Assembly (NCBI RefSeq): GCF_000271665.2 | Contig: NZ_CP010978.1 | Span: 4,571,001 to 4,635,000, forward strand | Direction of reading: 5' to 3' | Origin: Pelosinus fermentans JBW45 | Lineage (GTDB): Bacteria; Bacillota; Negativicutes; DSM-13327 | Length of the DNA stretch: 64,000 nucleotides | Shown: in pieces, positions 41,768-64,000 of the stretch | How the letters are laid out: every line of letters begins with the position of its first letter | Numbering within the stretch: position 1 is the first letter of the stretch | Notes under the pieces: model-generated | The model's input: only the letters and a program-made list of their open reading frames with translations | What the model was told of the DNA's origin: nothing | Database searches by the model: none | Position numbers and translations under genes: made by a program

Positions 41768-41795
41768 GTATGTTGCCTCCTATATCCTAATAGCC

Positions 41796-44045
41796 TCACC
41801 AAAGCGATCTCCACCCTTCCTTCACCATGCGCCAGGCTTCCTTCACATAATGAGTAGTCGCCCGCCTATGCCCTTTCGACGCTTTATTATAGGCGGCATC
41901 AGCATCCTTGTACCAGCCCACTTCATAATAGCAGTCCCCCTGGCGTAACCAAATATCAGCAAGGGACGCACGAATTTCTTCGTTATCGCTATCGCCAAAC
42001 CAGCTCTCCGCCAGTTTACAGACGGCTATTGCCTCCTGCCACTGGGAGAGCGCTATGTAGTGGCCTGCCAGTCTCTCCATTGTCAGGATGACCAACTTGC
42101 GGATTTGCTCATTATCACTCTCAATAAACCACTCTATCGCCAGATTGCCGACGGCAATGCCAGCTTCCGGCTGCTTCGCTTTATCGCAATACAGCGACTT
42201 ATTGCACATGGCCCGGGCGACCTCCAGCAAGATGTCCTCTTCCTCATCGTCAGGCGAGGGAGGGGCGGTCGGCAATCCGTCAGTGCCAGCAAACTTGTTG
42301 ATCAGACGGTCGCAGGCGGCGATTGCCTCCTCCCACCGCTCCAGCTCCTCATAATGGGTAGCCATCCTGCCAAGCGCCAAGGAGACCACCCACAGGATTT
42401 GCCCATCCTTACTGTTCTCAAACTGCTCCGCCACCTGACTGCCGGCGGCTATCGCCTCCTCCAGTCGGTCAAGCTCGGCACAGCAAAGGGCCTTGTTCCT
42501 CAGCGCCCAGGCAACATTAAGCCGGATAGTTTCATGCTTGCTTTTGAGAAATTTATCAATTACCTGATTGTAGGCGGCCAGCGCTTGCTCTGTTTTCTCC
42601 AGTCCGGCATAAATCCTGCCCTGATTGACCATGATGGAGGAAACCGTGGCTCGAATCTCGGTGTGCCCGCTCTTGCCGAACCGCTCGATCGCCTGTTCAC
42701 TCAGAGCTATTGCTTCTTCCATCCGTCCCAGACTGACATACAAAGCCGACAGATTGCCCATCGCATCTACGACCACTTCAGCAATGTCCTGCTCTTTGCT
42801 CCCTAAGCCTTGCATGATGCTCCCCAAAAACCGGTCAATGACTCGGGTATAGAATTCAATGGCCCCTTGCTCATCCCCCTGCCTTTCACCAATGCAGCCC
42901 TGATTATACAACGCTTCGGCTACATACAACTGCACATCAGGGTATTCGGTGCTTTCAAACCGGCGGAGCAGCTCATCGTAAGCAGCCCTCTGCCGCTCGT
43001 CGTCTCCCAGCAGATGATAGCAGACACCCTTATTAAAGAGTACCCGCGCTAAAATAGCCGGATTCTCCGCCGCATCAAACAAGGCGAGGAGTTCGTCGCA
43101 CAGACTGATGATCTCCGCCGGATCAGCCTCCGCATCACGCATGCCCAGGATATAGGAGAGCCAGTCTTCAGCCACCGACCTACGGGCTTCCCGCCAGTCA
43201 CTCCCCGGCCGCAGCTCCGCCCTGCACATAATCCGCCACAATTCCTCCCTGGCCTCACCTTCTCTGTCTGCGTCGCCCAGCTTTTTCACGCATAGCAGCC
43301 GGTCTGCCGCCGCTTGGACGACCTTGTACCGAAACGCATCTACCTCGCCAAACAAGGCGACAATCCGGTCATAGCACGCTATCGCTTTCTCGGTATTTCT
43401 CATAGCCGTATACTGTCTGCCCCGGCTCAGCAGTGCATCGCATACCCGGACGCCCAGCAGCACATCGCCGCGAACCCGGGAGCTTAGCCAGTTGCCGCCA
43501 TACTCAAGCATCTCAAGCATCGCTATCAGCTCATCATTATCAAACAGCTCGTCCAGCTTATCTGGCTCGATCCAGGCAAACAACTCATTACAGCCTGTCC
43601 ATGCCTCATAGGGCAAGGGTAGCTGTTCCTTTAGCAAGCGCAGCACCTCGTCATGCAGCTCAGGAGCCAGGCTTAGCGGCCATTCTTCTCCCTTGAGCAG
43701 CCGCTGCCATTCGCCAGGATCGCTGCGCCGCGCCGCATCGGCGCACAGCGATGTCAATAGCTCCATGAACCGGCCTGCCGCCGGCTCCCGGGGCGAAGGC
43801 GGCGCGTCCGCCCATCGCGCCTGCCGCAACTGTTGCCAGGAGAGCTGCCGAAACGGCTCCCCGTATGCCTCCCGCACTACTGCCGTTTCCGCCTGGCTCA
43901 ACGCCTGCCGATAAGCCTCCTGCAGCTTGCTAAACTCGTCCGGGTCCTCCTCCGGATGAAATATCTTCAACTTATCAGCATAGGCCCGCTTGATCAGCCG
44001 GATGTCGTCGGTTGGTTCAATGCCTAACAGGTTCCAATAGTTCAT
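41796..44045 (-). CDS. J-domain protein with TPR array
   Basis: Start at ATG 44045 (MNYWNLLGIEPTDD), AAAGGA 9 bp upstream; 749 residues. Residues 1-50 are a J-domain (IKRAYADKLKIFHPEEDPDEFSKLQEAYRQAL) in which HPD is replaced by HPE-ED, a variant seen in this class. A linker, then from ~200 to ~720 about ten TPR-like repeats (AIACYDRIVALFG, AIEFYTRVIDRFLG, ALAAYNQVIDKFLKS, EAIAACDRLINKF). Soluble. Directly upstream of and probably co-transcribed with hscC, its likely Hsp70. GC-rich. Confidence 0.85.
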   Translation of the reverse strand: MNYWNLLGIEPTDDIRLIKRAYADKLKIFHPEEDPDEFSKLQEAYRQALSQAETAVVREAYGEPFRQLSWQQLRQARWADAPPSPREPAAGRFMELLTSLCADAARRSDPGEWQRLLKGEEWPLSLAPELHDEVLRLLKEQLPLPYEAWTGCNELFAWIEPDKLDELFDNDELIAMLEMLEYGGNWLSSRVRGDVLLGVRVCDALLSRGRQYTAMRNTEKAIACYDRIVALFGEVDAFRYKVVQAAADRLLCVKKLGDADREGEAREELWRIMCRAELRPGSDWREARRSVAEDWLSYILGMRDAEADPAEIISLCDELLALFDAAENPAILARVLFNKGVCYHLLGDDERQRAAYDELLRRFESTEYPDVQLYVAEALYNQGCIGERQGDEQGAIEFYTRVIDRFLGSIMQGLGSKEQDIAEVVVDAMGNLSALYVSLGRMEEAIALSEQAIERFGKSGHTEIRATVSSIMVNQGRIYAGLEKTEQALAAYNQVIDKFLKSKHETIRLNVAWALRNKALCCAELDRLEEAIAAGSQVAEQFENSKDGQILWVVSLALGRMATHYEELERWEEAIAACDRLINKFAGTDGLPTAPPSPDDEEEDILLEVARAMCNKSLYCDKAKQPEAGIAVGNLAIEWFIESDNEQIRKLVILTMERLAGHYIALSQWQEAIAVCKLAESWFGDSDNEEIRASLADIWLRQGDCYYEVGWYKDADAAYNKASKGHRRATTHYVKEAWRMVKEGWRSLW

Positions 44046-44137
44046 CTTGTGCATCCTTTCGCTTCCTTTCTACTAGTGCTTCATTATTGCAGGGTATTGA
44101 GCATCCCTTTTACAATAGGCCCCCAGGCGTCTAGCGG

Positions 44138-44335: not shown

Positions 44336-44646
44336 GGGGACGGTGGATGCGTCTTATCACCCTTTTTCAACAATCCCTTACTACTCCGCCTGGATATAAC
44401 TTCGTCCTTTTAGATTTATCTTGCTCTACTCCAATACCCTTTTTTATAGGATAAATCGTTTTAAAAGTTATTACGTCTAGCAAAAGGTATAGATACCCAA
44501 ATATATTGAAACACATTCAACCAAAAAGAACCCTCTCACCTTAGAAGGTAAAGACGGCAAGGAGTTTACGATGGGAACGAATCATTCCCTTTTAATAGTA
44601 CTCTTTTTCTCTTCATTATAATGACACTACCACCGTCCCCATGTCT
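44330..44646 (-). repeat. MITE-like repeat G (317 bp) with regulatory box
   Basis: Terminal inverted repeats AGACACGGGGACGGTGG and CCACCGTCCCCATGTCT. Full-length relative of repeat E. It separates the hub fragment (left) from the Rhs fragment (right), both cut exactly at its ends. Confidence 0.85.
44447..44494 (-). promoter_or_regulatory. conserved 48-bp box, copy G
   Basis: Inside repeat G, ~400 bp upstream of the J-protein/hscC operon; no other promoter was recognised for that operon. Confidence 0.6.
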
Positions 44647-45180
44647 TGCAGGTTTAACCCATCGTCCCGATATTCGTCCTCCTGCGTAAATCGGGAAATC
44701 ACCGGATTGTAAAATCTTGCCCGCAGGTAATACTGCTGGGTGATCGGGTCCAACTGCTGGCCGGTATACTTGAAGCGGTTCGGAACGGTTTCTTCCTGTT
44801 CCGTGATATTGCCCCACGCGTCATACTCGTACCGGTTAAGCACGTCTCCTTCATCGTCTGTAAGATAGGTAATACTGCCTATTTCATCCGCTGCATAATG
44901 ATAGTATGTTCTGGCGTATTCAGCGTCGCTGATAATGAGTTCATGGCCGCGGATCAGCCGGTTGATGCCTGCATCATTGGTTTCTACCGCAACCTCTCTG
45001 CCACTGAAGATGAACTGGACTAGGCGCCCGTTCTCTTCCATCTCATAGCGCAGTCCTTCGGCGTCATAGCGGTTCACTTGTGTTTGACCGTCGACAGTTT
45101 CCACTTTGGTTGTCCGGTTGAAACCGTCGTAACTATACTGTTTGCCCCGTCATTGAGCAGGTTGCCGGCGCTGTCGTGGT
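44647..45180 (-). pseudogene. orphan Rhs core fragment
   Basis: Encodes the end of an Rhs core (RYDAEGLRYEMEENGRLVQF, YDAWGNITEQEE, YTGQQLDPITQQYYLRARFY, ISRFTQEDEYRDDGLNL) closely related to the large protein at 46793. The tail reads into repeat G right after LNL, where AYCANNP would follow. A 1-bp loss near 45147 shifts the frame upstream (LLNDGA/QYSYDGFN). No toxin tip remains. Confidence 0.8.
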
Positions 45181-45246: not shown

Positions 45247-45351
45247 AGACTTTAAATACATTCAACAAAAAATGAGCCGTCTCACCTTTCAAGATAAAGA
45301 CGACAATAGTTACAACAGAAATCCAAGACATTACCACCGTCCCCTTGGCTC
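45247..45351 (-). repeat. repeat H, ~105-bp partial copy
   Basis: Nearly identical to 39760-39865 (one base difference seen), ending CCACCGTCCCCTTGGCTC. It truncates an IS3-type orfA on its right. On its left CCCCGTCCCCGTGACAC (45225-45241) is another end fragment in opposite orientation. Confidence 0.8.
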
Positions 45352-45647
45352 ACCAGTTGTGTGCGTGAACGAATTCCATATTTTTTGCAGACTCCTGACA
45401 GGGAGTCTACCCCAGCTAGATAATCTTGTACAGCAACTTTCTTAAGCTCTGCTGTGTATTTGCTGTTTTGAGATTTTGATAGAAGACCCGCTTCTCCAAG
45501 TGACTGATAAATACGAACCCATTGTAAAAAGGCAGTAGCATTAACATGAAGGCTTTCTGCGATATGTCTTGCAGAGTCCTCACCTGACAAGTATCTCTGA
45601 ACCCAATAAATTTTTTCTGATGGAATACACTTTGAATTTCCAGTCAT
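45352..45647 (-). pseudogene. truncated IS3-type orfA
   Basis: ATG 45647 with GGGGAG upstream. HTH units VQRYLSGEDSARHIAESLHVNATAFLQW and DYLAGVDSLSGVCKKYGIRSRTQL as in the orfA at 31779. After SRTQLVS the frame enters repeat H. The right-end hairpin and GGGGAGCATATCAA sequence (45650-45715) match the IS terminus design of the intact copy. No orfB. Confidence 0.75.
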
Positions 45648-45801
45648 AAAAATACTCCCCTTGTAGTAGTCAGTTTTTTTATTTAAACTGTCTACCACAA
45701 GGGGAGCATATCAATTTTTACGTCTGCTGACCTCTTGAAATTACTGGGGATGTTTATAGTATCCCCGTCACACGACACCTTCTTGTTAGTATTAAAAGAC
45801 A

Positions 45802-46421: not shown

Positions 46422-46772
46422 TTAAAGAACATGTACTGAATAAATTGTTACATTCACCTCATTTTTTTCATTAACTGTTGCTTCGCAAGATAATGTTAAA
46501 TCACTTTTACGATTATTTGACCATAATTCAAAGTCAATTGAATATTCTTCACTATACTTCTGAGAATTATCTAATTTAAAAATATCCATTTCATCAAAAA
46601 ATTGATTTGGAGGTAAAGTCAGCTTCTCTCCATATTGTAGAATTGCTTCACTTAGTTCACTAGCTGTTAATACTCCGATTTTATTCATTTCTTCAAGCTT
46701 TCTATATTCTTCTTTAACTAGCAACTCAACTATTTCTTTAACACCGTTCTTAATTTGCTGTTCAATATTCAT
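46422..46772 (-). CDS. candidate immunity protein for the Rhs toxin
   Basis: 116 residues, acidic, no signal or membrane segment; helix-rich N-terminus (KEIVELLVKEEYRKLEEMNK) and beta-rich C-terminus (DFELWSNNRKSDLTLSCEATV). Starts 20 bp after the Rhs stop with AGGAGGG upstream. Position directly behind a polymorphic-toxin C-terminus is the classic immunity location; this is the main evidence. Family not recognised. Confidence 0.6.
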   Translation of the reverse strand: MNIEQQIKNGVKEIVELLVKEEYRKLEEMNKIGVLTASELSEAILQYGEKLTLPPNQFFDEMDIFKLDNSQKYSEEYSIDFELWSNNRKSDLTLSCEATVNEKNEVNVTIYSVHVL

Positions 46773-46792
46773 TTTCTATCCCTCCTTTGATG

Positions 46793-49700
46793 CTATTTTC
46801 TATTACCAGGCCATCTTGTTGCTGAATCAAGATGGTGTCCCAAGTGCTCAAAATATTTATCTGCTTCTCTTACTAAATATTTAGATTGATCAACTGTAAA
46901 ACCGCCTTTTCTAAGTGACTTATATGCTATACTTCTTTCTGCTTTAAGTGTGCCACCGTCTAATACATTTTGGGCCTGTGTTAACTTATAATGTGGTGTA
47001 CCAACTTTATTAGCAGGTCCTTGTACTTGAACCGTCAGTGCATCATATTTACTATACCCTTCTAGCTCTCTTACTGCTGCATCTTGATAAATATGATGTG
47101 CGTCTTTTAATCCAGCATTTTGCATCTGTCTATATGGGCCAGTAGTTATTTGCCTACCGTCAATTTCAACTGTTTTTATTTCCCTTACATATTTAGCTTC
47201 AGAAGTAGCATTACCCGACCCCTCAGGTACATCAGCTTCCGGTTTCCTCGGCTGATTGGGGTTCGACGTATTCTCAGGCGTTTCGTGTCGGTCTTGTCTA
47301 TTTACATCTTTTTGTTCGCACGCATACCCGCTCGGGTCATAATACACCACCGGGTTGTTGGCGCAGTATGCATACAGGTTTAGCCCATCGCCGCGATAAA
47401 TATCCTCCTGCGTAAATCTTGCGATAACAGGATTGTAATACCTTGCCCGCAGGTAATACTGCTGGGTCACCGGATCATACTGCTGGCCGGTGTACCGGTA
47501 GCGGTTCTCTACCTGTTCTTCGCAGACGACCGCATTGCCCCAGGCGTCGTATTCGTAGCGATTCTTTGCCTCAGCTTCATCCGTTACAAATATAATACTC
47601 CCCTGTTCGTCGCTTGCATAGTGATACCACGTTTTTTCCTGCGTGCATTTGCTGGCCCACAGCTCGAAGCTGCGGATCAAGCGTTTTTGGTCTTGGTCTG
47701 TCTCTTCCAAGACCACTTCCCGGTTCTCGTTGAAGATGAACTGCACCAGCTTACCGTTTTCTTCCAGCTCGTAACGCAGTCCTTCGGCGTCATAGCGGTT
47801 GATTTGGTTTTGGCCGTCTTTCGTCTCCACTCTGGTTGTCCGGTTGAAGCTGTCGTAGGTATACTGTTTGTCCCCGTCGCTGAGCAGGTTGCCAGCCTTG
47901 TCATAGGTGTACTGTGCTGTTTGGCCCTGCTTGGTATGGCTAGTCAGGCGATTTCTAGCATCATAAGTATATTGTTCTTCTATGCCGTTTACTATGCGCC
48001 GGCTGCGGTTGCCAGCCTTGTCGTAGAACAATTCTTCGCCGTAGTCCGGGTACTGGACTTGCGCCAGCCGGTTCAGGCCGTCATAGGTGTAGTGGGTTGT
48101 ACCCCGGAGTTGTTCTTTGACTGTCCGATTGCCATTGCCGTCGTAGTGGTAGCGGTTTTGCGCCAGCGTTTGGCCGTTCATGTCGATATGCAGCCCGCTG
48201 ATGTTCTTATCTATGTCGTAGCCGTAGCTTGTCCGCATTCCGTTGGCACGAAGGGCTTCTTTCAGCGTCCCGTCGGCGTTATGGGTGAATTGGACGATAC
48301 TTTGTCTTTCGTCACGGATTTCCTGTAGAAGGTCTGTTGCCGTATAGATATACTCCGTCGTTTTGCCGGTAACATCAGTCTGCCTGATCTTGTTGCCATT
48401 CAGGTCATATTCGTACGAGAGCAATCTTCGGCCGCTGGCCGCTTTCTCCTGTAGCCTTCCATCGGCGTAGTAGCGATAGCCGTAGCGCATGCCCTGAGCG
48501 ATGGCGGCTTTGAGCTTGCCGTCGGGGTGGTATTCATACATTTCTCTTAGGCCGCTGGAGCGTTCTAATTTTTCGGTCAGGGCATCATAGATGTTGTAGC
48601 GGTACTCAACCTGGTTGCCGTTGCGGTCGTTGTGGGACTTCAGCCGGCCTTGGGCGTCGTAGTGGAAGGTGTCGGTTTGGCCGGTAGGGTCGGTGATTTC
48701 CTTCAGCTTGTTGATGAGGTTGTATTCGTAGCGAATGGTATTTCCTTCGCCGTCGGTGGTTTCGGTGATGTTTCCAGCGTAGTCGTAGCCGTAATATTCC
48801 CGGCTGCCGTCGGCTTTGACGATTTCGGTAATTCTGCCCCATTTGTCCAGCTTGTATTCCGTTTTATTCTGGTTGCCGTCGCTGACGCCGATAATGTTGC
48901 CCTGGGCGTCGTATTGGTAGGACTGGATGGCTCCTCCCGGCGTGCGGATGGTTTGTATCCGGCCCGCCAGGTCGTATGCGTAGTCGACGCCGCTTTGGGT
49001 CGCGTCGCGCCGCTGTAGAAGCCGGCTGGCTTTGTCATAGCTGTTGGTCTCCAGTATGCTGCCGTCGGGCGCGAGGACGGTGATGACCCGACCCTGGGGG
49101 TCATAGGTGTAGCGATAGCCGTGGCCGTCCTTGCCTTTGGTTTGATATTCGTTGGGCAGTATCCTTCTTGTGATGCGCCCGTTTTTGTCATAGACGGTCC
49201 TTGTTACGCCGCCGTTTTTGCCGGTGTGTTGGGTCTCCCTGTTCAGGAGGTCGTATTCGTAGCTTTCTTCGACACCGTTGCCGTCTTGGATTTTTATGAT
49301 GTTGCCGGCCTTGTCGTAGGTGATTTCCGTCTTGTTTTCGATGCCGTTTTCTTTATCTTTGTGGATTTCAGCGATCAAGCGGTCGGCGGCGTCATATTGG
49401 CGCTCGACGCAATAGCCGGCCGGAGTTGTGATTTTGATGACGTTGCCGGTGTTGTCCAGTTGGTATTTGGTCCGGGCGGTGAAGTCGCCGCTGCCTTCCC
49501 GGTCGGCCCGTTGTTCGATTTCCACCAGCCGGCCCGCCGCGTCGTAGTGGTAGCGCAGCATCTGGTAGGCGTTGTCGTTGATTTTGCGCTTTTCATAGGT
49601 CCGTTGATTCAGGCAGTTGTAGCCGTATTCGATGACCGCGCCGGTGTTGTCTTTGATTTCGGTGAGCCGGTTTTGCCTGTCGTAGGCAAAACGGAGGCTG

Positions 49701-52700
49701 AGCACCCGGCCGCTGGCGCTGGTTTCGTCCTGTTCGTCGAGGAGTCTTCGCTCTTCGATCACATTGCCGGCATTGTCGTATTTATACTGGGTAGTCTGGT
49801 AGCGAAGCGTTCCGGCGGTCTTTCCGACCGGGATTCTTTTTTCGGTCAGCCAGCCCAGGCAGTTGTAGTGGTAGAGAATGCCCGGCCTGGTTTCGTCGGT
49901 GGCCCCTTCCAGGTAGCTTTGTGCGTCGATTTCTTTTACGATATTGCCGGCCAGGTCGTAGACGTAGGCTTTTTCTACTACGCCTCCGGGGCCCGTGATT
50001 TTTGTGAGACGGTTCCTCTCATCGTAGGCATAGGTGTAGCCCGGTCCGTCGTCGGTGGTTTCGTTGTAGTTTTCAGGCAGAATTTTTTTGACGATATTGC
50101 CTTTGGCGTCGTACTGTAGCCGCTCAATACCGCCATCGGGGTAGCGGATCTTGATTTTACGGTTGTCGCTGTCATATTCGTTTTCGATGCCCGTTCCGTC
50201 TTGGCTAGGTCCGTCGTAGGTGTTGGGATGGATTTCTTTGACGATGTTTTCTTCGGCGTCCCGGATGGTCGCTACGGTGTTGCCGAGGGGGTCGATGGTA
50301 GCCACGAGTTTGTCAAGGGCGTCGTGGATGTAGCGCCAGCCTGGGCCGCTGTGGCTTTTCTCGTGGTACTGGTTGGGCCGGATTTCTTTGATCCGGTTTC
50401 CCAGCTTGTCATAGTCGTTTTTCCAGGTGTTGCCGAGGGCGTCGATGACGAGCGTCCGGTAGTCGAGATGATTGTAGCCGTATTCTTTTCTTCCCAGAAC
50501 GCTTTCTACCGCCATCAGCCTGCTTGCAGCGTCATATTGGTAGGTGAATCTATCACCTTCGGCGGTGGTGACGCTTTGGGGTTTGTTTTGGCCTTCGGCA
50601 TAGTCATAGGTTGTCAGGTTGCCGCTTCCGTCAGTGTAGCTGATCATTCTTCCTTTGGCATCATAGGCGTAGCGGACGGTTTGCCAGCGTTCGCCTTCGA
50701 TCCGGTTTTTGACTTCCACCAGATTGCCTCTTTCGTCGTAACGGTAGCGGATGTCGACTCCGCTGGTGTCGCTTTCGGCGATTTTCCGGCCGGCCGCGTC
50801 GTATTCAAGGGTATGGATGAGTCCGTTGGGCCATATTTCAGCCGTCAGTTGGCTTTCTTCGTTGTAGGTATAGCGGGTTTCATGACCGCACCGGTCTTTT
50901 TGCCAGAGGATGTTTTCTTTGTCGTCGTACTTGGTTTCTTCTGTCGTTTCGTCAGCGTAGCGGATGGTTTCTACAAGATGGCGCCGGTTGTAATAGTAGC
51001 AGGTGCGCTCCCCGTTGTGCGGCTGGGTGACGGTGGTCATCCGATCCTGGTCCTGGTAAAAGAAGAGCGTTTCGGCTCCGTTTGCGAGGGTTTGCCGGAT
51101 GACACGCCCCTGGCCGTCGTATTGGTTGGCAACGTAGCGCTGACCGTTCTGGTCGGTGATGGCCGCGATAAAGCCCTGGTCGGTGTATTCGTATGTAATA
51201 GTCCCATCGTTAGGGTAGGTGACTTCGGTGAGGAGTTCGCCCTGGTAACGGTAGCGGATGTTCCGTCCAAGCATGTCGCGGATTTGTGTCAGTTTGTCAT
51301 TTTCATAGGTAAACTGCAATGTGTGTCCGTTAGCCAAAGTGACTTGGCTGATAAAGGAGCCGGTGTATTCGATTTTCACCCGGTTGCCGTTCTTGTCCGT
51401 GATGGCAGTCAGCCGTCCGAATTCGTTGTAGTCCCAGGTTTTCTTTTCCCGGATGAATTGAAGGCGGTAGCCGTGTTTTTCTTCGGTGAGTACGAGCGAC
51501 CGGTCGCCGCCGCGCCGGTTCTGGTAGATGCCGTCTTGTTGTTCGAAAGTTTCGATATGAAGGTCGGGCAGGAGGATGCGGACCTGGTTTTGGCGCCGCT
51601 CAATCCGGCTGCCCAGGCTTAACAGCCAGCGGCTGCCCAGATGCTGGTGTTTGTTTTGGTACAAGGATTCGTAGCTTCGGGTGAGGACGAAGTCTTCGCC
51701 GAGGTCGCTGAGGATGAGGTCGGTCATCCGGAGGCTAAAGGAACCGGTAACGACGTTGACCGGGTCTTTGAGACAAGTTTCTTTTGTAGGTATACGTCCC
51801 TCGGTATCCGGTCCGTTGTGACCGCCGCTTTTGTTTTCTCCGCCTGCCTTTTCGTGTCCGCCTTTTTCTTCCCTGCCTTTTTTTCTGTGTCCTGCCGCCG
51901 AGCCTACGATCGCCACGTTTTGCAGGGTATCAAAGAACAGGTTGAGCGATTCCGGGTCGTTAAAGCTGAAGGTGCCGTCTATGATTTTCCGGCCCAGGTC
52001 GCTGATGCCGTCTTTAGCCCGCATCAGCGCGTTGAAGCCCATGGCTCCCATGATGAGTCGCTCGACGGTCCGGACGGCTTTGGCTGCTTTGGCCGTTTTG
52101 GCGATCGTGTTGGCCACTTTGGCACCCGCCACCGCCAGTTTGAGTCCTTTGCCCGCCACGTTCGCGCCCGGGATGATGCACCCTATGAGGGAGCACGCCG
52201 CGCCGCAGTAGTCGCCCCGCGCCAGCGAGATGGCCGCGTTCAGGCCGTTGGCTACTACGCTGAGTCCCGGGATGCAGCCGGCGATATCAAGCAGGACCTG
52301 GACTCCGTTGAGCGCGGCGTCGAAGAGTGACGGCGCAGCCACGATGTCATGCTTGTTTTTGTTGTAGCCCAGTTGCCGGAACGCCGGTGTGCTGATCGTG
52401 ATGGCTCCACCGCTGAGTTTGAGTTCACTCGCCCCAATCCCCAGGCTGCAATTTTCCATTCCGTACAGCATGAGGGATTCGGCCGGCGGTCGTTCTGCTT
52501 TTTCTTCCGGTGAGGCCGGCGCGGGTTCTCCTCCCCCGCCACCGCTTCCGCCGCCGAAGATGCTTTCGACGTTTTTTACGAAGGCCGGAATTTCTGCCGC
52601 CATGGCTTTGACGCCGCCACTAAAGCTGACCGCGATGTCGCTGCCAATTTGCTTGAGGATTTCCTGCCCCGAGTTGTAGGGCTTGCTGCCGCCGCCAGCC

Positions 52701-54094
52701 ATGTACAGGGCCGCTCCCTGTGTATGCCCGGCATCGTATTTGGCTTGCACCGCTGTGATTTCGCCTTCGGGGATGGCGCTTTTGGCCGCTACGAGTTTGA
52801 GCCGTTTGTCGGCCTGGACGTGGATGTCCTGGGTGCTTTTGATGACAATGCCGCCCGCGTCTGTCATCTGGATGAGCGCCTGGTTGCCACCCCCTTGGTC
52901 GTACGCGCCCCGCGCCGCTACCAGTTCGCAGCTGCCCGGGGTCATTTTAAGCATTTTATTGGTCGAGTTCATCATTTTACTCGCGGGATCGACGTAATCC
53001 CCGTGTGTCGCGCTGTTGGCTCGCCGGCTCCCCAAGGCTACGGCTTTGCCGTTATTTTCGTAGTAGACGAATACTTCGTCGCCTTCGTCCGGCATGGAGT
53101 AGAAGTAGTTGTTCATGGTGTTTTCAAACGGCAGCCACATGGCGGTGGCTTCGTCCTGCTCGGCGTCACAATAGAAGTGGACTTTGATTTGCGTACCCTG
53201 CACCCGGATGATTTTCCCTTTGATGGCGTCTCTTTGGTTGAGCGCACCGGCACTCTTTTCCCTGTCCGGCCGGCAGCCTTCCAGGTGCGCCAGGGTTAGA
53301 CGGTTTTCCGCAGTTTCGCCTACGCTGACGATTTCGCTCCGCTGGCTCCAGCGCACTCGTTCCCCTTGGCTTTCGAGCTGGTAGCCTGCTCCGATGGTCA
53401 GGTCATAGCTTGTCTTACCTTCGGTTTCAAATTGGTAGGCTTCGGCTTGGTCGTCGACGTTTTGTTGGATTTGGATGTATTTCAGGATGTCTTTACCGCT
53501 GTCGGCCGGTTTTTTCCGGGTTTCCGCCCCCAGTTCTTTGCAGGCAAAGGGGTAGGTGCCCACGGCGAGGCGCAGCAAATCCGATTTGCTGTCGGTAAAG
53601 AGGTAGGCTCCGTACTGGTTGGCGATCCGCCGCAGAAACTGCCAGTCGGTTTCGGCGTTCTGGTAGAGCATTTGCTCGATTTGGATATCTTCGGCCACTT
53701 CCACCTGGATGCCGTAGGCCGCCATGACGGTGTTGGCCACCTCACTTAGCGTTTTGACGGTGCTTTGAAAGGTACGGCTGATTTTCTTCCGGTCTGCCAG
53801 TATGCTCAGGCTTTTGGCTTCGAGGACCAGTTCGCTGTAGTCGGCTTCATTGTTAAGGCCCACGCTTTGGCAGATGCCCACGAATACGTTGGTTCCGTCC
53901 GCGTCGGTGACTTTGACGGGCGCGTCTTCGAGCTCGAGGACTTCGGCCACTGTCAGCAGGCGTTTGCTGATGAGTGTGAGTTCCATGTGCCCATGCTCAT
54001 TGGCTCCGTCCAGGATGTGGATGTGTTTGACCCGGAGATATTCTTTGGCGAATTCAACTTTCAGCCGCCCCAGTTCCATCAGTTCTTTTCCCAT
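46793..54094 (-). CDS. VgrG-Rhs fusion effector with HNH-like toxin tip
   Basis: 2433 residues; AGGAGG before ATG. Residues ~1-235: gp27/gpD-like hub (LGRLKVEFAKEYLRVKHIHI, WQFLRRIANQYGAYLF); ~290-365: gp5 OB-fold (IKGKIIRVQGTQIKVHFY, MPDEGDEVFVYYEN); needle repeats to ~450; Gly-rich linker (GGGSGGGGGEPAP, ~520); hydrophobic helical block ~600-700; DUF6531-like entry (CLKDPVNVVTGSFSLRMTDL, ~785); ~870-2250 RHS/YD repeats ending YDPVTQQYYLRARYYNPV...NNPVVYYDPSGY. The variable tip of ~177 residues contains AHHIYQDAAVRELEGYSKYD and VGTPHYKLTQAQ, resembling AHH/SHH-type HNH/EndoVII nucleases. Fusion of spike and Rhs shell makes it a self-delivering CIS cargo. High GC. Immunity candidate follows. 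Confidence 0.93.
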   Translation of the reverse strand: MGKELMELGRLKVEFAKEYLRVKHIHILDGANEHGHMELTLISKRLLTVAEVLELEDAPVKVTDADGTNVFVGICQSVGLNNEADYSELVLEAKSLSILADRKKISRTFQSTVKTLSEVANTVMAAYGIQVEVAEDIQIEQMLYQNAETDWQFLRRIANQYGAYLFTDSKSDLLRLAVGTYPFACKELGAETRKKPADSGKDILKYIQIQQNVDDQAEAYQFETEGKTSYDLTIGAGYQLESQGERVRWSQRSEIVSVGETAENRLTLAHLEGCRPDREKSAGALNQRDAIKGKIIRVQGTQIKVHFYCDAEQDEATAMWLPFENTMNNYFYSMPDEGDEVFVYYENNGKAVALGSRRANSATHGDYVDPASKMMNSTNKMLKMTPGSCELVAARGAYDQGGGNQALIQMTDAGGIVIKSTQDIHVQADKRLKLVAAKSAIPEGEITAVQAKYDAGHTQGAALYMAGGGSKPYNSGQEILKQIGSDIAVSFSGGVKAMAAEIPAFVKNVESIFGGGSGGGGGEPAPASPEEKAERPPAESLMLYGMENCSLGIGASELKLSGGAITISTPAFRQLGYNKNKHDIVAAPSLFDAALNGVQVLLDIAGCIPGLSVVANGLNAAISLARGDYCGAACSLIGCIIPGANVAGKGLKLAVAGAKVANTIAKTAKAAKAVRTVERLIMGAMGFNALMRAKDGISDLGRKIIDGTFSFNDPESLNLFFDTLQNVAIVGSAAGHRKKGREEKGGHEKAGGENKSGGHNGPDTEGRIPTKETCLKDPVNVVTGSFSLRMTDLILSDLGEDFVLTRSYESLYQNKHQHLGSRWLLSLGSRIERRQNQVRILLPDLHIETFEQQDGIYQNRRGGDRSLVLTEEKHGYRLQFIREKKTWDYNEFGRLTAITDKNGNRVKIEYTGSFISQVTLANGHTLQFTYENDKLTQIRDMLGRNIRYRYQGELLTEVTYPNDGTITYEYTDQGFIAAITDQNGQRYVANQYDGQGRVIRQTLANGAETLFFYQDQDRMTTVTQPHNGERTCYYYNRRHLVETIRYADETTEETKYDDKENILWQKDRCGHETRYTYNEESQLTAEIWPNGLIHTLEYDAAGRKIAESDTSGVDIRYRYDERGNLVEVKNRIEGERWQTVRYAYDAKGRMISYTDGSGNLTTYDYAEGQNKPQSVTTAEGDRFTYQYDAASRLMAVESVLGRKEYGYNHLDYRTLVIDALGNTWKNDYDKLGNRIKEIRPNQYHEKSHSGPGWRYIHDALDKLVATIDPLGNTVATIRDAEENIVKEIHPNTYDGPSQDGTGIENEYDSDNRKIKIRYPDGGIERLQYDAKGNIVKKILPENYNETTDDGPGYTYAYDERNRLTKITGPGGVVEKAYVYDLAGNIVKEIDAQSYLEGATDETRPGILYHYNCLGWLTEKRIPVGKTAGTLRYQTTQYKYDNAGNVIEERRLLDEQDETSASGRVLSLRFAYDRQNRLTEIKDNTGAVIEYGYNCLNQRTYEKRKINDNAYQMLRYHYDAAGRLVEIEQRADREGSGDFTARTKYQLDNTGNVIKITTPAGYCVERQYDAADRLIAEIHKDKENGIENKTEITYDKAGNIIKIQDGNGVEESYEYDLLNRETQHTGKNGGVTRTVYDKNGRITRRILPNEYQTKGKDGHGYRYTYDPQGRVITVLAPDGSILETNSYDKASRLLQRRDATQSGVDYAYDLAGRIQTIRTPGGAIQSYQYDAQGNIIGVSDGNQNKTEYKLDKWGRITEIVKADGSREYYGYDYAGNITETTDGEGNTIRYEYNLINKLKEITDPTGQTDTFHYDAQGRLKSHNDRNGNQVEYRYNIYDALTEKLERSSGLREMYEYHPDGKLKAAIAQGMRYGYRYYADGRLQEKAASGRRLLSYEYDLNGNKIRQTDVTGKTTEYIYTATDLLQEIRDERQSIVQFTHNADGTLKEALRANGMRTSYGYDIDKNISGLHIDMNGQTLAQNRYHYDGNGNRTVKEQLRGTTHYTYDGLNRLAQVQYPDYGEELFYDKAGNRSRRIVNGIEEQYTYDARNRLTSHTKQGQTAQYTYDKAGNLLSDGDKQYTYDSFNRTTRVETKDGQNQINRYDAEGLRYELEENGKLVQFIFNENREVVLEETDQDQKRLIRSFELWASKCTQEKTWYHYASDEQGSIIFVTDEAEAKNRYEYDAWGNAVVCEEQVENRYRYTGQQYDPVTQQYYLRARYYNPVIARFTQEDIYRGDGLNLYAYCANNPVVYYDPSGYACEQKDVNRQDRHETPENTSNPNQPRKPEADVPEGSGNATSEAKYVREIKTVEIDGRQITTGPYRQMQNAGLKDAHHIYQDAAVRELEGYSKYDALTVQVQGPANKVGTPHYKLTQAQNVLDGGTLKAERSIAYKSLRKGGFTVDQSKYLVREADKYFEHLGHHLDSATRWPGNRK

Positions 54095-54724: not shown

Positions 54725-55318
54725 CTAGCACCAATTAATTGTGGGGTATAGAGGAACAAGAAATCTAATTTCGGTAATATTTGTTTTATTGGGATAGATA
54801 GCACTTAACGGCCAATTACATCGTGGATCCGAGTGACCGGCATAGCACAAACCTCCATTAGAATCATAACCAGTTATTATTGCAGAGTGCTGCCATACTT
54901 GAGAGCCATCTGTTAATTCATAACAAAACTGAACTATATCTCCTGGTTTAATCGTAGTGCTACTCCATTCCACTCTAGCAATTTGACGTAATACCACATA
55001 ATCCATAAAGTCATCTACATTTATCCAACTATATGTATTAGTGTACCGGCCATCGCAATAAAAATCATATGCTGCAGATAACCCGGCGGCATTCCAACAT
55101 TGCGCTACAAAATTTGTGCAATCTTCACTATCCCCAAAATAATAGAAATTAGGGTTCATAGGATGATCATCAGACTCTCCGCAATGGCTAAGTGCGTACT
55201 CTACAGCTACTCTACGATCAATTTGAACTTTAAAAAATCCGTCTCGAATACCATATTTGATAATGCCATAGAACTCTTTAGCGCCTTTCTTAACATTTTT
55301 ATCAAGATCGAGCTTCAT
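54725..55318 (-). CDS. Amidase_6-like putative cell-wall amidase
   Basis: 197 residues. RRVAVEYALSHCG, NFYYFGDSEDCTNFVAQCWNAAG with the nucleophile-position Cys, YSWINVDDFMDYV, KPGDIVQFCYEL and WQHSAIITGY with the His are the hallmarks of the putative amidase domain PF12671 (NlpC/CHAP-like papain fold). Unusually there is no signal peptide or wall-binding domain. Located among CIS genes, which suggests an injected peptidoglycan-cleaving effector (inference). The following gene may encode its immunity protein. Confidence 0.7.
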   Translation of the reverse strand: MKLDLDKNVKKGAKEFYGIIKYGIRDGFFKVQIDRRVAVEYALSHCGESDDHPMNPNFYYFGDSEDCTNFVAQCWNAAGLSAAYDFYCDGRYTNTYSWINVDDFMDYVVLRQIARVEWSSTTIKPGDIVQFCYELTDGSQVWQHSAIITGYDSNGGLCYAGHSDPRCNWPLSAIYPNKTNITEIRFLVPLYPTINWC

Positions 55319-55822: not shown

Positions 55823-56482
55823 TCATAATAATACCTGCTTTGAGCCCTTTATATTGTCCAAAGCGTTTGCCGTATTCTCATTATTCTTTTTTTTATCCAG
55901 ACCAGCCTGCACGGCTGCGACTGTGCCGGATGGGTCCACTTTGTTCAGCGCCGCAGTAATGGCGGCTCGTCCGATCTGCTCCATGACTCCCGCCTGCGAC
56001 CCTGTACTTACAAAATCACCCGGTGTGCTGGCTGCAGTTGCTACGGCTACATCAGGAGCTTCTGCAGGTGCCGTATTGCTATCCACTATTACATCGTCAA
56101 TCTTATCTACTTTCTGACGGATTACGATGTTAAAATTCCCCATACCCGCTTGACTGCGATATACTTCGTTATAATCTATGACAAATGCTTTATCGAATAT
56201 GATGGTGCGTTTCGGCTTAGTCTCAATCTGTACTGTTACCTTACGGTACGCGTCTTCTTGCTCGGCCGGGACCTGCGCCCATTTGAACAACTTGACTGTC
56301 TCACTGTTGCCACTATCCTCGCTGTCAGCGTGAAGGGTTCCCGCTATAACTAGCGTCATATAGCCTCTGGTAGATTTCGCCAGAGAATCGCTTGGCGTCG
56401 ATAATATAGCCTGTACATTGTTAATGATTTTGTCGTCATAGGTTAATGTCTCCTGACCTTCGATCTGTAGGTTGAATCCCAT
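55823..56482 (-). CDS. Hcp-like / CIS adaptor protein
   Basis: 219 residues; GGAGGGG before ATG. N-terminal ~135 residues are beta-rich with a tube-like pattern (GYMTLVIAGTLHADSEDSG, VKLFKWAQVPAEQEDAYRKV, RTIIFDKAFVIDYNEVY, GNFNIVIRQKVDKID), resembling Hcp or tail-tube-derived domains. The C-terminal ~80 residues are Ala/Thr/Ser-rich with an amphipathic helix (QIGRAAITAALNKVDP). It could be a tube subunit with a cargo extension or an effector-loading protein. Family assignment tentative. Confidence 0.45.
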   Translation of the reverse strand: MGFNLQIEGQETLTYDDKIINNVQAILSTPSDSLAKSTRGYMTLVIAGTLHADSEDSGNSETVKLFKWAQVPAEQEDAYRKVTVQIETKPKRTIIFDKAFVIDYNEVYRSQAGMGNFNIVIRQKVDKIDDVIVDSNTAPAEAPDVAVATAASTPGDFVSTGSQAGVMEQIGRAAITAALNKVDPSGTVAAVQAGLDKKKNNENTANALDNIKGSKQVLL

Positions 56483-59457: not shown

Positions 59458-60653
59458 GTATAACCCTATCAATACTGCTTTATATACTCTTCCCAAGTAC
59501 TCGGGTGAAGCTTTTTAATCTGTTTCAGCCTATCACTTGGAATCTTAGTATCCCAATAATTTACACCCTGCCGGGCAAATTCCTCAACAATCTCCATTTT
59601 CATCTTATATTCTTCTGATCCTATAGCAACAATCCAATCCCTTAATATATCTACCGGAAAAAACTTTTCATTCGGGTCTTCATTGCCATAAGTTTTAATA
59701 CTTCTGTAATATGGTTCCGATACTTTTGCTTTCTTTTCAACAATCAAATAATGGGCATATGCATTTCTTTCTAATGCTGGCCCCCTGCTAATAATGCTTG
59801 TACTGCAGCTGTTCTCCCGCTTTTCGTTTTATGGTTAATATCAGCCCCGGCTTCTACTAAAGCTTTTGTTTTCTCAATACCACATCCAATAGATTCCATT
59901 AATATACTGGTGCCCGGCTCCATACCATGTTCATGACCAATATAAATCCAATTAGGGTCAGCACCATATTTCAGCAGCAGCTTGACATATTTCGGATCCT
60001 TTTTGGCAACGATATCCACCCAGGAAAAATGTGCTGCTAATGAAAGGGGAGTTTCTTCTGAATAGGTCTCATACCTTACAGATGCTATATTCGGGTCGGC
60101 GCCACATTTTAATAATGCTTCTGCAGAATTATATTTCTCCATTCCGACCGCCCATAGCAGCAAAGTCACTTTGTACTTAGGATCCTGATAATTCAATAGT
60201 TCCGGTTTATCTTTTGCTAGTTTTTCTATGGCTGCAGTTTTTTGCTCCTTTACCGCGATTGCCAATTCCCAAACAGGAGTATCCTTGAAAATATTTATAT
60301 TCGTCATTTTATATTCTCCCTTCGCGTTTTCACTCTCTTGGCTATGACATCCGGATAATAGAACAGAAAAAAGGATCAGCAGCATGGGGATTATAAAGAA
60401 TAACTTTTTATTCATTATCTAGTTTTCTCCCCCCTTTTCTTTAATCCCATCTATTACTGCATCCATTAAATGATTTTTAACTGCATTTTTAACATTCGTC
60501 TTTGGATTCCACGTATTAGTTGGGTATTGTGCAGGTAAATACTCTACGCTTCCAATTGGTTTTGAAAACCAGCCTTCAGCAGTGTGTAAAATTTCACCAT
60601 CTACAATATATGCAGTCATTGAGGCAGAATAGTTTGGACCATTTGGGGTATAA
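59458..60653 (-). repeat. 1.19-kb direct repeat, copy 1
   Basis: Counterpart of 57717-58911; carries the 3' end of the full lipase effector and a frameshifted ankyrin gene. Confidence 0.85.
59469..60415 (-). pseudogene. ankyrin-repeat lipoprotein, frameshifted copy
   Basis: Same protein as 57726-58670 (lipobox LLSGC, ankyrin units). One base is missing near 59780: CTGGCCCCCTGCT here against CTGGACCTCCTGCG in the other copy, so translation stops at LLAGGQH (214 residues). The rest (YLIVEKKAKVSEPYYR...) is in another frame. The first part still has the lipobox and most ankyrin repeats and might retain activity. Confidence 0.85.
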
Positions 60654-61516
60654 GCATCTAAATTAACAGCTGCAGGATTAAATAGTATCGCATTTTTGTT
60701 AGTTTCCACTGCGTTAGCTGCAGCTTCCGCGCCACCTTTAGAATGACCGACAAATGTTATATTTGAGCCATATTTTTCTTTAACAAAGTTTTTTGAATAG
60801 GCTAATGAATTCCGCACATCGTCTGATTCGCCAAAAAGCTGTTTAGCATTATCATCTCCATCCGCACTCCAAGCCCAATCTTGTGTTCCTCTATTAACCA
60901 GCGTATATTCCGTTTTCCCTTCTACCGTCCTTGCATATACGCCGATTCTCATACTTCCTTTTTCCTTAGCATCATCTAACTGCCAACCTCCGGGTAATAT
61001 ATCTTTCTTTGCCTCCTCAAGGGATTTTTTATAATAAACGTGCGCTGCCATTTCTGCTGCTTCCATTAAAGTGGGTCCGCCTGCTGCACCTGACGCATTT
61101 TCCGCCTCTGTGGCGGCGGCGATTGCCTCCACTTCATCGCCGGCGGCCTCGTTGCGGTCGTCGATCTGGGCGCTGCCCGCGTTAATGACGATGGAGATCA
61201 CGCCTCCTTTGACGCAGGTGAGTTTGCTCTGTTCGATTAGGGCTGGCGCGCCCTCCAGGATATGTTTTTTGTTGACGTTGATCCAGGCCAACGGCGTTAC
61301 GGGCGAGCAGGGCAATTTTGTCGCTGCGCAGAAGCCGTATTTCAGAATATGCTGGCCCGGTTTGTGATCGTTGGCGTTTAACAGCGGCTCCAGTCCCGGC
61401 GTGTACGCCACGCCGTGATCTTCAGGCAAATTCAGGATGTTTTGCGAACTGCCTTTGCTGCATTTGGATTTGGTTCCCCGAGGGATATACGCGGGTCCTG
61501 ATGCGGTGGTTGACAT
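60419..61516 (-). CDS. DUF4280 (PAAR-like) lipase effector
   Basis: 365 residues. Residues ~10-122 form a PAAR-like DUF4280 spike tip: GTKSKCSKGSSQN, YGFCAATKLPCSPVTPLAWI, LTCVKGGVISIVI, with paired Cys. Residues ~160-330: alpha/beta lipase (class 3-like) with TLVNRGTQDWAWSADGD, nucleophile elbow GHSKGG and AILFNPAAV. No signal peptide. It should cap the spike and deliver a phospholipase into target cells. The ankyrin lipoprotein gene starts 4 bp after the stop (likely immunity), and DUF1629-like, pentapeptide and hub genes precede it with 1-20-bp gaps. Confidence 0.9.
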   Translation of the reverse strand: MSTTASGPAYIPRGTKSKCSKGSSQNILNLPEDHGVAYTPGLEPLLNANDHKPGQHILKYGFCAATKLPCSPVTPLAWINVNKKHILEGAPALIEQSKLTCVKGGVISIVINAGSAQIDDRNEAAGDEVEAIAAATEAENASGAAGGPTLMEAAEMAAHVYYKKSLEEAKKDILPGGWQLDDAKEKGSMRIGVYARTVEGKTEYTLVNRGTQDWAWSADGDDNAKQLFGESDDVRNSLAYSKNFVKEKYGSNITFVGHSKGGAEAAANAVETNKNAILFNPAAVNLDAYTPNGPNYSASMTAYIVDGEILHTAEGWFSKPIGSVEYLPAQYPTNTWNPKTNVKNAVKNHLMDAVIDGIKEKGGEN

Positions 61517-61517
61517 A

Positions 61518-62069
61518 TTACTCCCTCACTTTCACCCGTTCCAGGCCGGCTGCCAGCGGTCTTCTTCTTAAGATGCTTTCGGCGGCGGCCAGCGATACGA
61601 GCCAGATTTCTTCGACGAGTCCGGCCACTTTGAGAATGTGTTTGCCCCGGACGGCGCCTTGTTTCACCACGAGTTCTTCCACGATACCGGTATCGTAGAT
61701 TTTTGCCGTGCTGTGCAAACACTCCGTTGATTCGATATGCGGAATCCAATACAGCGGCACCGGCGACTTCACGCCTTCCGCCGCGTCAAAATCCAGCGGG
61801 TAGAGCTGAATACCCTTAAACTGGAGCTCCGGTTCGAGGAGCGAGAACAGGTCCCGGAACCGGTCGGCGATCATAAAGCAGGGCGACTGGAGCATATCGC
61901 AGATTTCAAGACCCATGTCGGGCTGATAATAGGCGACGACCAAGTCCTCCAGTCTGGTAAAGGCGGCCCGATCCATTTTGTAGGGATAGTGTTCCCGGTC
62001 AAGATTCTCGATGGCAATGGAATTGGATACGATATGGCTTTGGAAAAGCCGGAAATATTCGTCTGTCAT
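61518..62069 (-). CDS. DUF1629/Imm11-like CIS-associated protein
   Basis: 183 residues. Segments FMIADRFRDLFSLLEPELQFKGIQLYPLD and YWIPHIESTECLHSTAKIYDTG resemble the Imm11 (DUF1629) group found with PAAR-like and pentapeptide genes. Possibly an adaptor/chaperone for the spike-tip effector and not an immunity protein, given it is encoded upstream of the effector. GC-rich; 1 bp before the effector start. Assignment moderate. Confidence 0.55.
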   Translation of the reverse strand: MTDEYFRLFQSHIVSNSIAIENLDREHYPYKMDRAAFTRLEDLVVAYYQPDMGLEICDMLQSPCFMIADRFRDLFSLLEPELQFKGIQLYPLDFDAAEGVKSPVPLYWIPHIESTECLHSTAKIYDTGIVEELVVKQGAVRGKHILKVAGLVEEIWLVSLAAAESILRRRPLAAGLERVKVRE

Positions 62070-62070
62070 G

Positions 62071-63141
62071 TTATTTTTCCCCGCCTTCCGTCGTTTGGAC
62101 TGCGGCCAGTTCCTGAAAATCGGAATCCGTATAGTCGCCGCCCTCGATTTCCATTTCCGTCAGTAAAGAGTCTGTCAGCAAAGCACCGGGAAAGCGGCAG
62201 TTGGTAAGCCGCACGGCTTCCATTGTACAACTGGCAAATTCCAGATTGCGGTAGACATCGTTTCTTTCATTGTCTCGGCGCAGCGATTCGGCCAGCACGT
62301 CCCGGAACTCAACTTCACTAAGCCGCGTATCCAGAAACAGCGCGCCGGACAACCGGACCTGCGTAAATACGGTGCGCGCAAAGCGGCAGTTGGCAAAGGT
62401 GACGTCCCTTAGATCAACGTCATCAAAGGTGCAGTCTTCGAAGGTGCAATCCTGGAACCGGCTGACGCTCAAATCCAGCTGGTTAATTTTTTTTTTGCTG
62501 TAGCGACATTTTTCGTAGGTGCGAAACCGCAGGGAGTCGTCCGTACTGCAATTAAAAATGTCGATGGGCGGCAGAAGGGCAAACACCGCGCCCTGCCAGT
62601 CCTGGTACTCGCCAAACAGGATGTAGAATTCGTCCTCGCGCCTAAGTGCGCCGAGCGCCGGGGATGCGGCGAGGTCCTGCAGCCAGTATTTGAGCTTCGT
62701 GTACAGGCCGTAGGCAAGCAGCCGGACAGATTGCCAGCGCAGGCTTTCGAGGTGGGCACTCCGTACCCAGGTCCGTTGGTTTTTTGCCGCTTCCGTCAGG
62801 GCGTCTTCGTGGAAACGCCAATGGACAAACAGCCAGGCGGCGTCAATGTATTCGCTGTAAAAAGGGTCGGTTACCGGCCACTCGCTGCTGTAAAAGTCGA
62901 GACGAAGTTTGGGCTCGCCAAAGTACATGGCGGTGTACAGCACCGATATAGACAGATAGGCAGCCGGCGGCAAGCCTGCTTCCTGCTGCCGCCGCGCCGC
63001 GTTTTCCATCGCGCTTTCCACGGCGGCCACGCACGGCGCGGCCGCGGCCTCTTTGGCAAGATCCCGCAGGGTGTCAGCCAGCAGCTTACCTGCCAGCGGG
63101 ACATAGTGCTCCGCCTGGAATGCGGCGACAACATCTTTCAT
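62071..63141 (-). CDS. pentapeptide-repeat CIS accessory protein
   Basis: 356 residues. N-terminal ~200 residues form a helical domain (FQAEHYVPLAGKLLADTLRDLAKE, LEYWLQDL-type segments). The C-terminal ~130 residues carry pentapeptide repeats (DCTFEDCTFDDVDLRDVTFANCRFARTVF, LTNCRFPGALLTDSLL, each split here for brevity). Such proteins recur beside DUF4280 effectors in Bacillota contractile systems; probably an adaptor. One base from the next gene; AAAGGAG upstream. Confidence 0.75.
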   Translation of the reverse strand: MKDVVAAFQAEHYVPLAGKLLADTLRDLAKEAAAAPCVAAVESAMENAARRQQEAGLPPAAYLSISVLYTAMYFGEPKLRLDFYSSEWPVTDPFYSEYIDAAWLFVHWRFHEDALTEAAKNQRTWVRSAHLESLRWQSVRLLAYGLYTKLKYWLQDLAASPALGALRREDEFYILFGEYQDWQGAVFALLPPIDIFNCSTDDSLRFRTYEKCRYSKKKINQLDLSVSRFQDCTFEDCTFDDVDLRDVTFANCRFARTVFTQVRLSGALFLDTRLSEVEFRDVLAESLRRDNERNDVYRNLEFASCTMEAVRLTNCRFPGALLTDSLLTEMEIEGGDYTDSDFQELAAVQTTEGGEK

Positions 63142-63159: not shown

Positions 63160-64000
63160 TTAGGTGATGACAACGTCCTTGGCCGCCAGGGTAATCTGGT
63201 CTGGCAGCATGTTGATGAACGATTCGCCCGATTTGAGCAGGATCTGTTCTTTGGCCAGCACCTGGATGTCTTTTTTTGCCTGTACGGTGACGTTGGCTTC
63301 CGATTCGACGGTGATATTCTGGGCGGAGACGATCTTGATACCGTCGTCCTGCGTCAGGTCAATGAAAATTTTCTGATGCTGGCAGATGATATACAGTCCC
63401 CCGTCCGTCATCAGGAGTTCTTTGCCGCTGGGAGCTTTGAGGCTCTTATGGCGCGGGTTGGCCAGCGGCGCCGTATTGATCGAGCTGGCAGCAAAACCGT
63501 CCGCTTCATTTTTGGAAGGGAACATGATGCGCACGTAATCGCCAATTTCCGGCATGCAGTACCAGCCACTGCCGTCGCTGCTGGAGTAGGCGGTCGAATA
63601 GGGAAACCACCAGTCACCGCTGCCGTCGTACTCTTTGTCGATCTCGATAAGATGCACTTTGACGGTATCGCGCTGCACGTCTTTAACCTGGCCGATCAGC
63701 ACCCGGCCGGCGCAAGCGGTGTTGGACACCTGCGGCGCGACAAAGCCGGTTTTTCCGGCCAGGAGGTATTCCATTTCCAAAATGCCGTCGACGAGCCGGG
63801 CTTCCACTCTCTTGACGCGGCACTCGCTGCCGTTGATGGAGATGATGTCACCCAGGTAGACATAGTCGTAGGACCGGGCGATCAGGGCGGAGAAATCCTG
63901 TCGCAGCGCCTCGCCGCCGTCTGCCATATAGTTCTCAGTAACCTGGTTATATTCGTCGTCCTGCTTGCCATGCAGAAAGGAGGTGGTGGTGATTTCCTTG
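63160..64000 (-). CDS. CIS spike/hub protein (VgrG/gpV-like), 5' end off window
   Basis: Frame is open to the right edge (281 codons here; an internal ATG at 63927 is not the start). HGKQDDEYNQVTENYMADGGEALRQDF is the end of a gp27-like hub. An OB-fold follows (VLIGQVKDVQRDTVKVHLIEIDKEYDG, MPEIGDYVRIMFPSKNEADG), then needle repeats (DDGIKIVSAQNITVESEANVTVQAKKDIQVLAKEQILL). Contractile-injection spike to which the DUF4280 tip would bind. First of the effector-loading genes read right to left. Confidence 0.85.
   Translation of the reverse strand, partial: KEITTTSFLHGKQDDEYNQVTENYMADGGEALRQDFSALIARSYDYVYLGDIISINGSECRVKRVEARLVDGILEMEYLLAGKTGFVAPQVSNTACAGRVLIGQVKDVQRDTVKVHLIEIDKEYDGSGDWWFPYSTAYSSSDGSGWYCMPEIGDYVRIMFPSKNEADGFAASSINTAPLANPRHKSLKAPSGKELLMTDGGLYIICQHQKIFIDLTQDDGIKIVSAQNITVESEANVTVQAKKDIQVLAKEQILLKSGESFINMLPDQITLAAKDVVIT

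Follow-up and report, generated by a model that had tools for sequence, protein, structure and literature searches.

The window, a stretch of 64,000 nucleotides from Pelosinus fermentans JBW45 (contig NZ_CP010978.1, positions 4,571,001 to 4,635,000 of the forward strand), carries on its reverse strand a gene, preceded by AGGAGG and opening with ATG, that encodes a single chain of 2433 aa and is followed by a gene for a 116-aa protein (Table 1). The original prediction for this locus, made from the letters of the sequence, held that a VgrG-like hub, a hydrophobic block, a complete Rhs shell and a tip are joined in one chain without PAAR. The positions of both open reading frames were verified, and the composition of the chain was borne out by domain searches and alignment. 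Searches with Pfam and NCBIfam placed Gp44-like hub domain 2 (Gp44-like_2nd) at residues 100-170 (E 8e-7), DUF6531 at residues 777-850 (E 3e-11), RHS repeats (E 4e-118) and, close to the C-terminus, Rhs_assc_core (TIGR03696) at residues 2182-2256 (E 5e-22). Residues 18-438 align with the stand-alone VgrG of the same genome (E 8e-25), the gene for which lies about 9 kb upstream. Hydrophobic segments were found at residues 597-615 and 630-648 of the helical block, and PAAR, DUF4150 and DUF4280 had no match anywhere in the chain. The same collections gave no secretion-signal family in the chain; in Pfam, the OB-fold PF04717 had no match in it and a weak one in the sibling VgrG.

Table 1. Features of the VgrG-Rhs locus and of the gene cluster around it, in window coordinates
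Feature	Position	Strand	Basis
VgrG-Rhs polymorphic toxin, 2433 aa, whole gene	46793..54094	-	ORF, domain matches, alignment with sibling VgrG
Residues 1-480, VgrG-like hub with spike region	52655..54094	-	Gp44-like_2nd, E 8e-7; sibling VgrG, E 8e-25
Residues 591-770, hydrophobic helical block, no PAAR	51785..52324	-	Two hydrophobic segments; 20-91% identity among chassis copies
Residues 771-2257, DUF6531, YD/Rhs shell and Rhs_assc_core, YDPSGY at end	47324..51784	-	Pfam/NCBIfam, copy alignment
Residues ~1901-2433, 3' segment departing from sister genome, includes tip	46793..48394	-	Identity shift
Residues 2292-2433, tip of ~142 aa, predicted HNH-like toxin domain	46793..47221	-	Homologues, alignment, model
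Residues 2333-2368, HHxxQDAA ... GTPH, proposed active site His2333, His2334, His2368	46991..47098	-	Alignment, model
DUF7668 protein, 116 aa, proposed cognate immunity protein	46422..46772	-	PF24705; adjoins tip relatives elsewhere
Displaced remnant of Rhs shell end, no tip of its own	44616..45104	-	Identity comparison
Hcp/TssD-like protein	55823..56482	-	PF17642, E 9e-4, under cut-off; family kept in related clusters
DUF4280 (PAAR-like) protein, lipase-like C-terminus; possible separate spike tip	60419..61516	-	Domain matches
Imm11-like and pentapeptide-repeat proteins	61518..63141	-	Usually between VgrG and DUF4280 in related clusters
Stand-alone VgrG, C-terminal part; gene runs on beyond window	63160..63927	-	Domain matches

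Within a sample of 300 genomes of the class, a hub profile matched 37, and in nine genomes the match lies within an open frame of 1523-2444 aa, the VgrG-Rhs chassis; these are the genome under study (G000), G003, G348, G415, G427, G622, G625 and G652, plus G631 with a shorter copy. Eight copies were fully translated, the shell was confirmed in these, and outside the class a hub-Rhs chain was seen in part in G075, where it runs past the fetched stretch. An assembly artefact as the source of the fusion was rejected because the same fusion recurs in nine genomes. The single chain originally described is confirmed, but the fusion is not a one-off. Over eight copies, identity to the window is 37-95% in the hub, 45-93% in the shell, 77-91% in the associated core and 8-29% in the tip, the hub being about as conserved as the shell, and the DPSGY motif is kept in all eight translated copies. 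The other copies bear NucA/NucB, AHH, Tox-HNH-EHHH or LHH tips, as well as some that match no family, and each of the seven is accompanied by a different small gene starting between -19 and +71 bp from the toxin stop. The fusion is a recurrent chassis with a conserved body and a polymorphic tip, and no paper describing it was found in the literature searched.

How tips may be exchanged on this chassis is illustrated by the sister genome (G003), which shares 93-95% identity with the window over the hub and most of the shell, falling from about residue 1900. Both the tip and its neighbour are replaced there, by a NucA/NucB tip and a SUKH-like protein. Residues 1901-2180 of the window are 60% identical to the sister but 82% identical to G427, which is elsewhere in the chain more distant from the window than the sister is. 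In addition, the displaced shell remnant downstream is 91% identical to the shell end of the sister and 66% to that of the window's own gene. These shifts of identity point to recombination as the probable source of the gene's 3' end; read most simply, a 3' segment brought in the new tip and the putative immunity gene, and the former shell end stayed on downstream. That the downstream protein varies with the tip, as had been expected, was confirmed by the replaced neighbour in the sister genome and by the different neighbour in all seven other copies. Comparable pieces of shell also occur downstream of other chassis copies (L053, L128), and a transposase helix-turn-helix fragment lies at 45282-45698, like the shell remnant downstream of the probable immunity gene.

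The tip motif, AHHIYQDAAV...GTPHYKLTQAQ, reads in the sequence as it was quoted before. Plasmid homologues of the tip, with 41-46% identity, occur in Burkholderia and Paraburkholderia, and a genome scan added 12 loci in Burkholderiales, Pseudomonas, Bacillota and a verrucomicrobial MAG; one relative was found on viral contigs. Over 13 aligned sequences, tip residues His42, His43, Gln46, Asp47, Ala48, Ala49 and His77 are invariant, giving this small family the signature HHxxQDAA...G[TS]PHY. The tips of two chassis copies, those of G427 (E 2e-8) and G348 (E 1e-6), join the family distantly by hhalign; four other Rhs tips compared with it had a probability <1, a Tox-SHH member that gave no alignment among them. 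The family had no prior assignment and, spread over several phyla, is newly added to the HNH-like tips.

Assignment to the AHH, SHH or HNH toxin families, as originally foreseen, succeeded weakly for relatives and not for the window's tip, which has no family match in Pfam or NCBIfam. Three tip relatives match Tox-GHH2 (PF15635, best E 0.004) and three match Tox-SHH (PF15652, best E 0.06), all under the curated cut-offs, and PF15635 had no match in any sampled genome. Against PDB sequences the tip alone gave nothing, and a 13-row profile gave none or chance matches. In the confident AlphaFold model (pLDDT 88, pTM 0.82), a strand ends with the HH, and a second strand and a helix with His77 at its start come after it. 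The succession strand-strand-helix (beta-beta-alpha) is the order of the HNH site. The tip thus presents, by alignment and model, the HNH/Endo VII feature of an HH and a downstream His in beta-beta-alpha order. Foldseek and VIA comparisons of the model with solved structures in the PDB, and a Foldseek comparison with viral structures, gave nothing significant, and the nuclease reading therefore rests on motif and context. Of the nuclease proposed at the outset, the motif, the weak superfamily matches of the relatives and the beta-beta-alpha arrangement are retained; the match to a solved nuclease fold is not. Alignment and model support the prediction of an HNH-like, metal-dependent nuclease, and the tip is probably a toxin that cuts DNA or RNA. 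Were the resemblance to HNH only motif-deep, the toxic activity of the tip could be of a different kind, directed for instance at a protein or a small molecule, and the window's tip, having neither family nor fold match, would fit such a case. This alternative is considered unlikely, since the strand, strand, helix order comes with conserved His positions and a QDAA block, the best, though weak, family matches of the relatives are to HNH/Endo VII toxins, and several of the other tips borne by this chassis are nucleases of the HNH or NucA kind.

The 116-aa neighbour, which begins 20 bp after the toxin stop, scores 86.1 bits on DUF7668 (PF24705, cut-off 27), a family without a described function and with no mention in the literature searched. 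Among 398 Bacillota genomes, DUF7668 was found only in the one studied here. A plasmid collection holds 12 DUF7668 records, 11 with a tip match immediately upstream; ten of these 11 come from B. glumae and represent a single lineage, so that the plasmid pairs are not independent, most coming from one species. B. plantarii has a related gene in the same place after a tip relative, and the gene after each of six further tips encodes a protein of about 123 aa that hhalign connects distantly with DUF7668 (probability 97, E 5e-10). In Burkholderiales and Pseudomonas, the gene immediately after a tip relative encodes DUF7668 or a distant homologue of it, and in distant Bacillota tip relatives the next gene encodes Imm48 or other proteins, not DUF7668. 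The pair is thus old and mobile, and other pairings exist in the wider family.

The neighbour is, on this genomic evidence, very likely the antidote to the tip, that is, a predicted immunity protein, and the earlier proposal of it as the immunity candidate is strongly supported by the adjacency of DUF7668 to tip relatives in another phylum and by a neighbour that changes with the tip. A mere passenger could also lie here, as the other neighbours of distant tip relatives might suggest, but such a coincidence is highly improbable for a rare family that sits beside the same tip in another phylum, only 20 bp past the toxin stop, and that in the sister genome has given way to another gene, as the tip has to another tip. 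As the probable immunity protein, DUF7668 gains a testable candidate function. Its model has a pLDDT of 88; the best matches of the model in the PDB were ketosteroid isomerases (E 0.03, TM 0.3), too weak to use. As for the Imm48 neighbours of Bacillota tip relatives, a Pfam match was found in L022 and similar proteins in L068 and L069; no associated toxin was given for Imm48 by Zhang et al. 2012 (PMC3482391), and the arrangement suggests the Bacillota tip relatives as its toxin partner.

That the locus encodes a polymorphic toxin of predicted nuclease activity together with its immunity protein is well supported, because DUF7668 follows tip relatives and the sister genome has swapped both tip and neighbour. 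The full reading, with a probability of roughly 0.8, is a polymorphic toxin with a built-in delivery adaptor, an HNH-type nuclease tip and DUF7668 immunity, in which tip and immunity are exchanged together. In the proposed mechanism, the hub would seat the chain in the spike of a phage-tail-like injector, while the shell would fold round the tip and free it by cutting at DPSGY, as in studied Rhs proteins. The injected tip would act as a metal-dependent HNH-type nuclease through His2333, His2334 and His2368 and cut nucleic acid of a competing bacterium, and the DUF7668 protein would bind the tip, which would shield the producing cell and its relatives. The tip would move jointly with the immunity gene onto the conserved hub-shell chassis through recombination in the 3' end of the shell, an exchange that would leave remnants downstream.

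The chain resembles PAAR-Rhs and related T6SS Rhs effectors in its Rhs shell, variable C-terminal toxin, DPxG motif and probable downstream immunity gene; C-terminal self-cleavage has been reported for RhsB of Acidovorax citrulli (PMC10989746) and Tse15 of Acinetobacter (PMC11461821). It differs from PAAR-Rhs effectors in carrying a whole VgrG-like hub instead of a PAAR or clade domain, and in that no canonical T6SS sheath was found in this genome. A VgrG module N-terminal to a toxin is known in certain cases (Zhang et al. 2012, PMC3482391), and evolved VgrGs and VgrG-fused polymorphic toxins share this order, whereas the fusion in the window takes in a complete Rhs shell. Tox-GHH2 (PF15635) and Tox-SHH (PF15652) are likewise used as Rhs tips, with similar length and an xHH followed by a further His, but the window's tip scores on neither and its relatives stay under the curated cut-offs. 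The general kind is known; new here is that a polymorphic Rhs toxin carries its own VgrG hub, together with an HNH-like tip without a family and a DUF7668 immunity candidate.

Upstream, the gene cluster encodes Hcp/TssD-like, VgrG, FHA-like, PP2C-like, DnaJ-like and VWA proteins and several large proteins without family assignment, and the same gene set was found again in other Bacillota families. Among its best conserved products is a 732-aa protein without a family match (L051:1550-3748; contig 1 of this genome, about 4649550-4651750), which keeps 57-64% identity across distant Bacillota members. Of 30 hub-positive genomes tested, 27 encode it, against none of 40 hub-negative ones (Fisher p ~2e-16), a statistic that is only indicative because the genomes share ancestry. 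In this genome, the VipB/TssC sheath (PF05943) and Phage_sheath_1 (PF04984) are absent, with positive controls for both. The 732-aa protein as a TssC homologue was rejected, hhalign against six TssC giving a probability <1 with a shallow and a deeper profile, and its profile had no sheath match in the PDB; a sheath role is therefore a guess from context. Viral contigs held no relative of it, a profile search with the 429-aa cluster protein gave no baseplate match, and the cluster was not matched to any named injector system. With neither VipB nor Phage_sheath_1 and with no sheath match for the 732-aa protein, the chain is not filed as a T6SS effector; it would probably work like one.

The genome's want of a recognisable VipB or Phage_sheath_1 sheath would also suit a chain that is not injected but shown on the surface or shed, as Rhs toxins of the WapA type are, its VgrG-like part being a structural relic. 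The conservation of the hub, about equal to that of the shell, the Hcp-like, stand-alone VgrG and DUF4280 genes upstream, the 732-aa marker in nearly all hub-positive genomes and a chain without any secretion-signal family match make a surface toxin distinctly improbable. For delivery by an injector, a tentative proposal, held at somewhat less than even odds, is that the chain is the warhead of an undescribed Bacillota injector unlike T6SS and eCIS in sequence, with the 732-aa protein possibly its sheath and with an Hcp-like tube protein, VgrG, DUF4280, FHA, PP2C, the 934-aa and the 732-aa proteins as its conserved genes. A phage-like translocation system of Gram-positives was inferred from DUF4280 and VgrG genes (PMC5349215, PMC8651086), and the likeness lies in DUF4280 beside VgrG-like genes in Bacillota that lack recognisable T6SS or eCIS genes. 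Those papers infer its existence only, whereas a conserved set of candidate genes is listed here. The chassis thus marks a cluster that may be the system inferred but not found in the two papers, and the tip and neighbour pair is an entry point to this candidate injector.

Several further genes of the cluster were observed. The 934-aa protein (L018:6188-8992) has actin/Hsp70-like nucleotide-binding motifs (DFGTSNTT, DCGGGTTD), odd for an injector cluster, and Hsp70 and DnaJ-TPR genes lie at 40070-44054 of the window. The Imm11-matching protein (61518-62069) occurs in most related VgrG clusters examined and may therefore be a structural or adaptor part there, not an immunity protein. An Amidase_6/CHAP-like gene (54725-55318) separates the Rhs gene from the Hcp-like gene; unrelated genes occupy this site in the sister genome, so it may be another exchangeable cargo.
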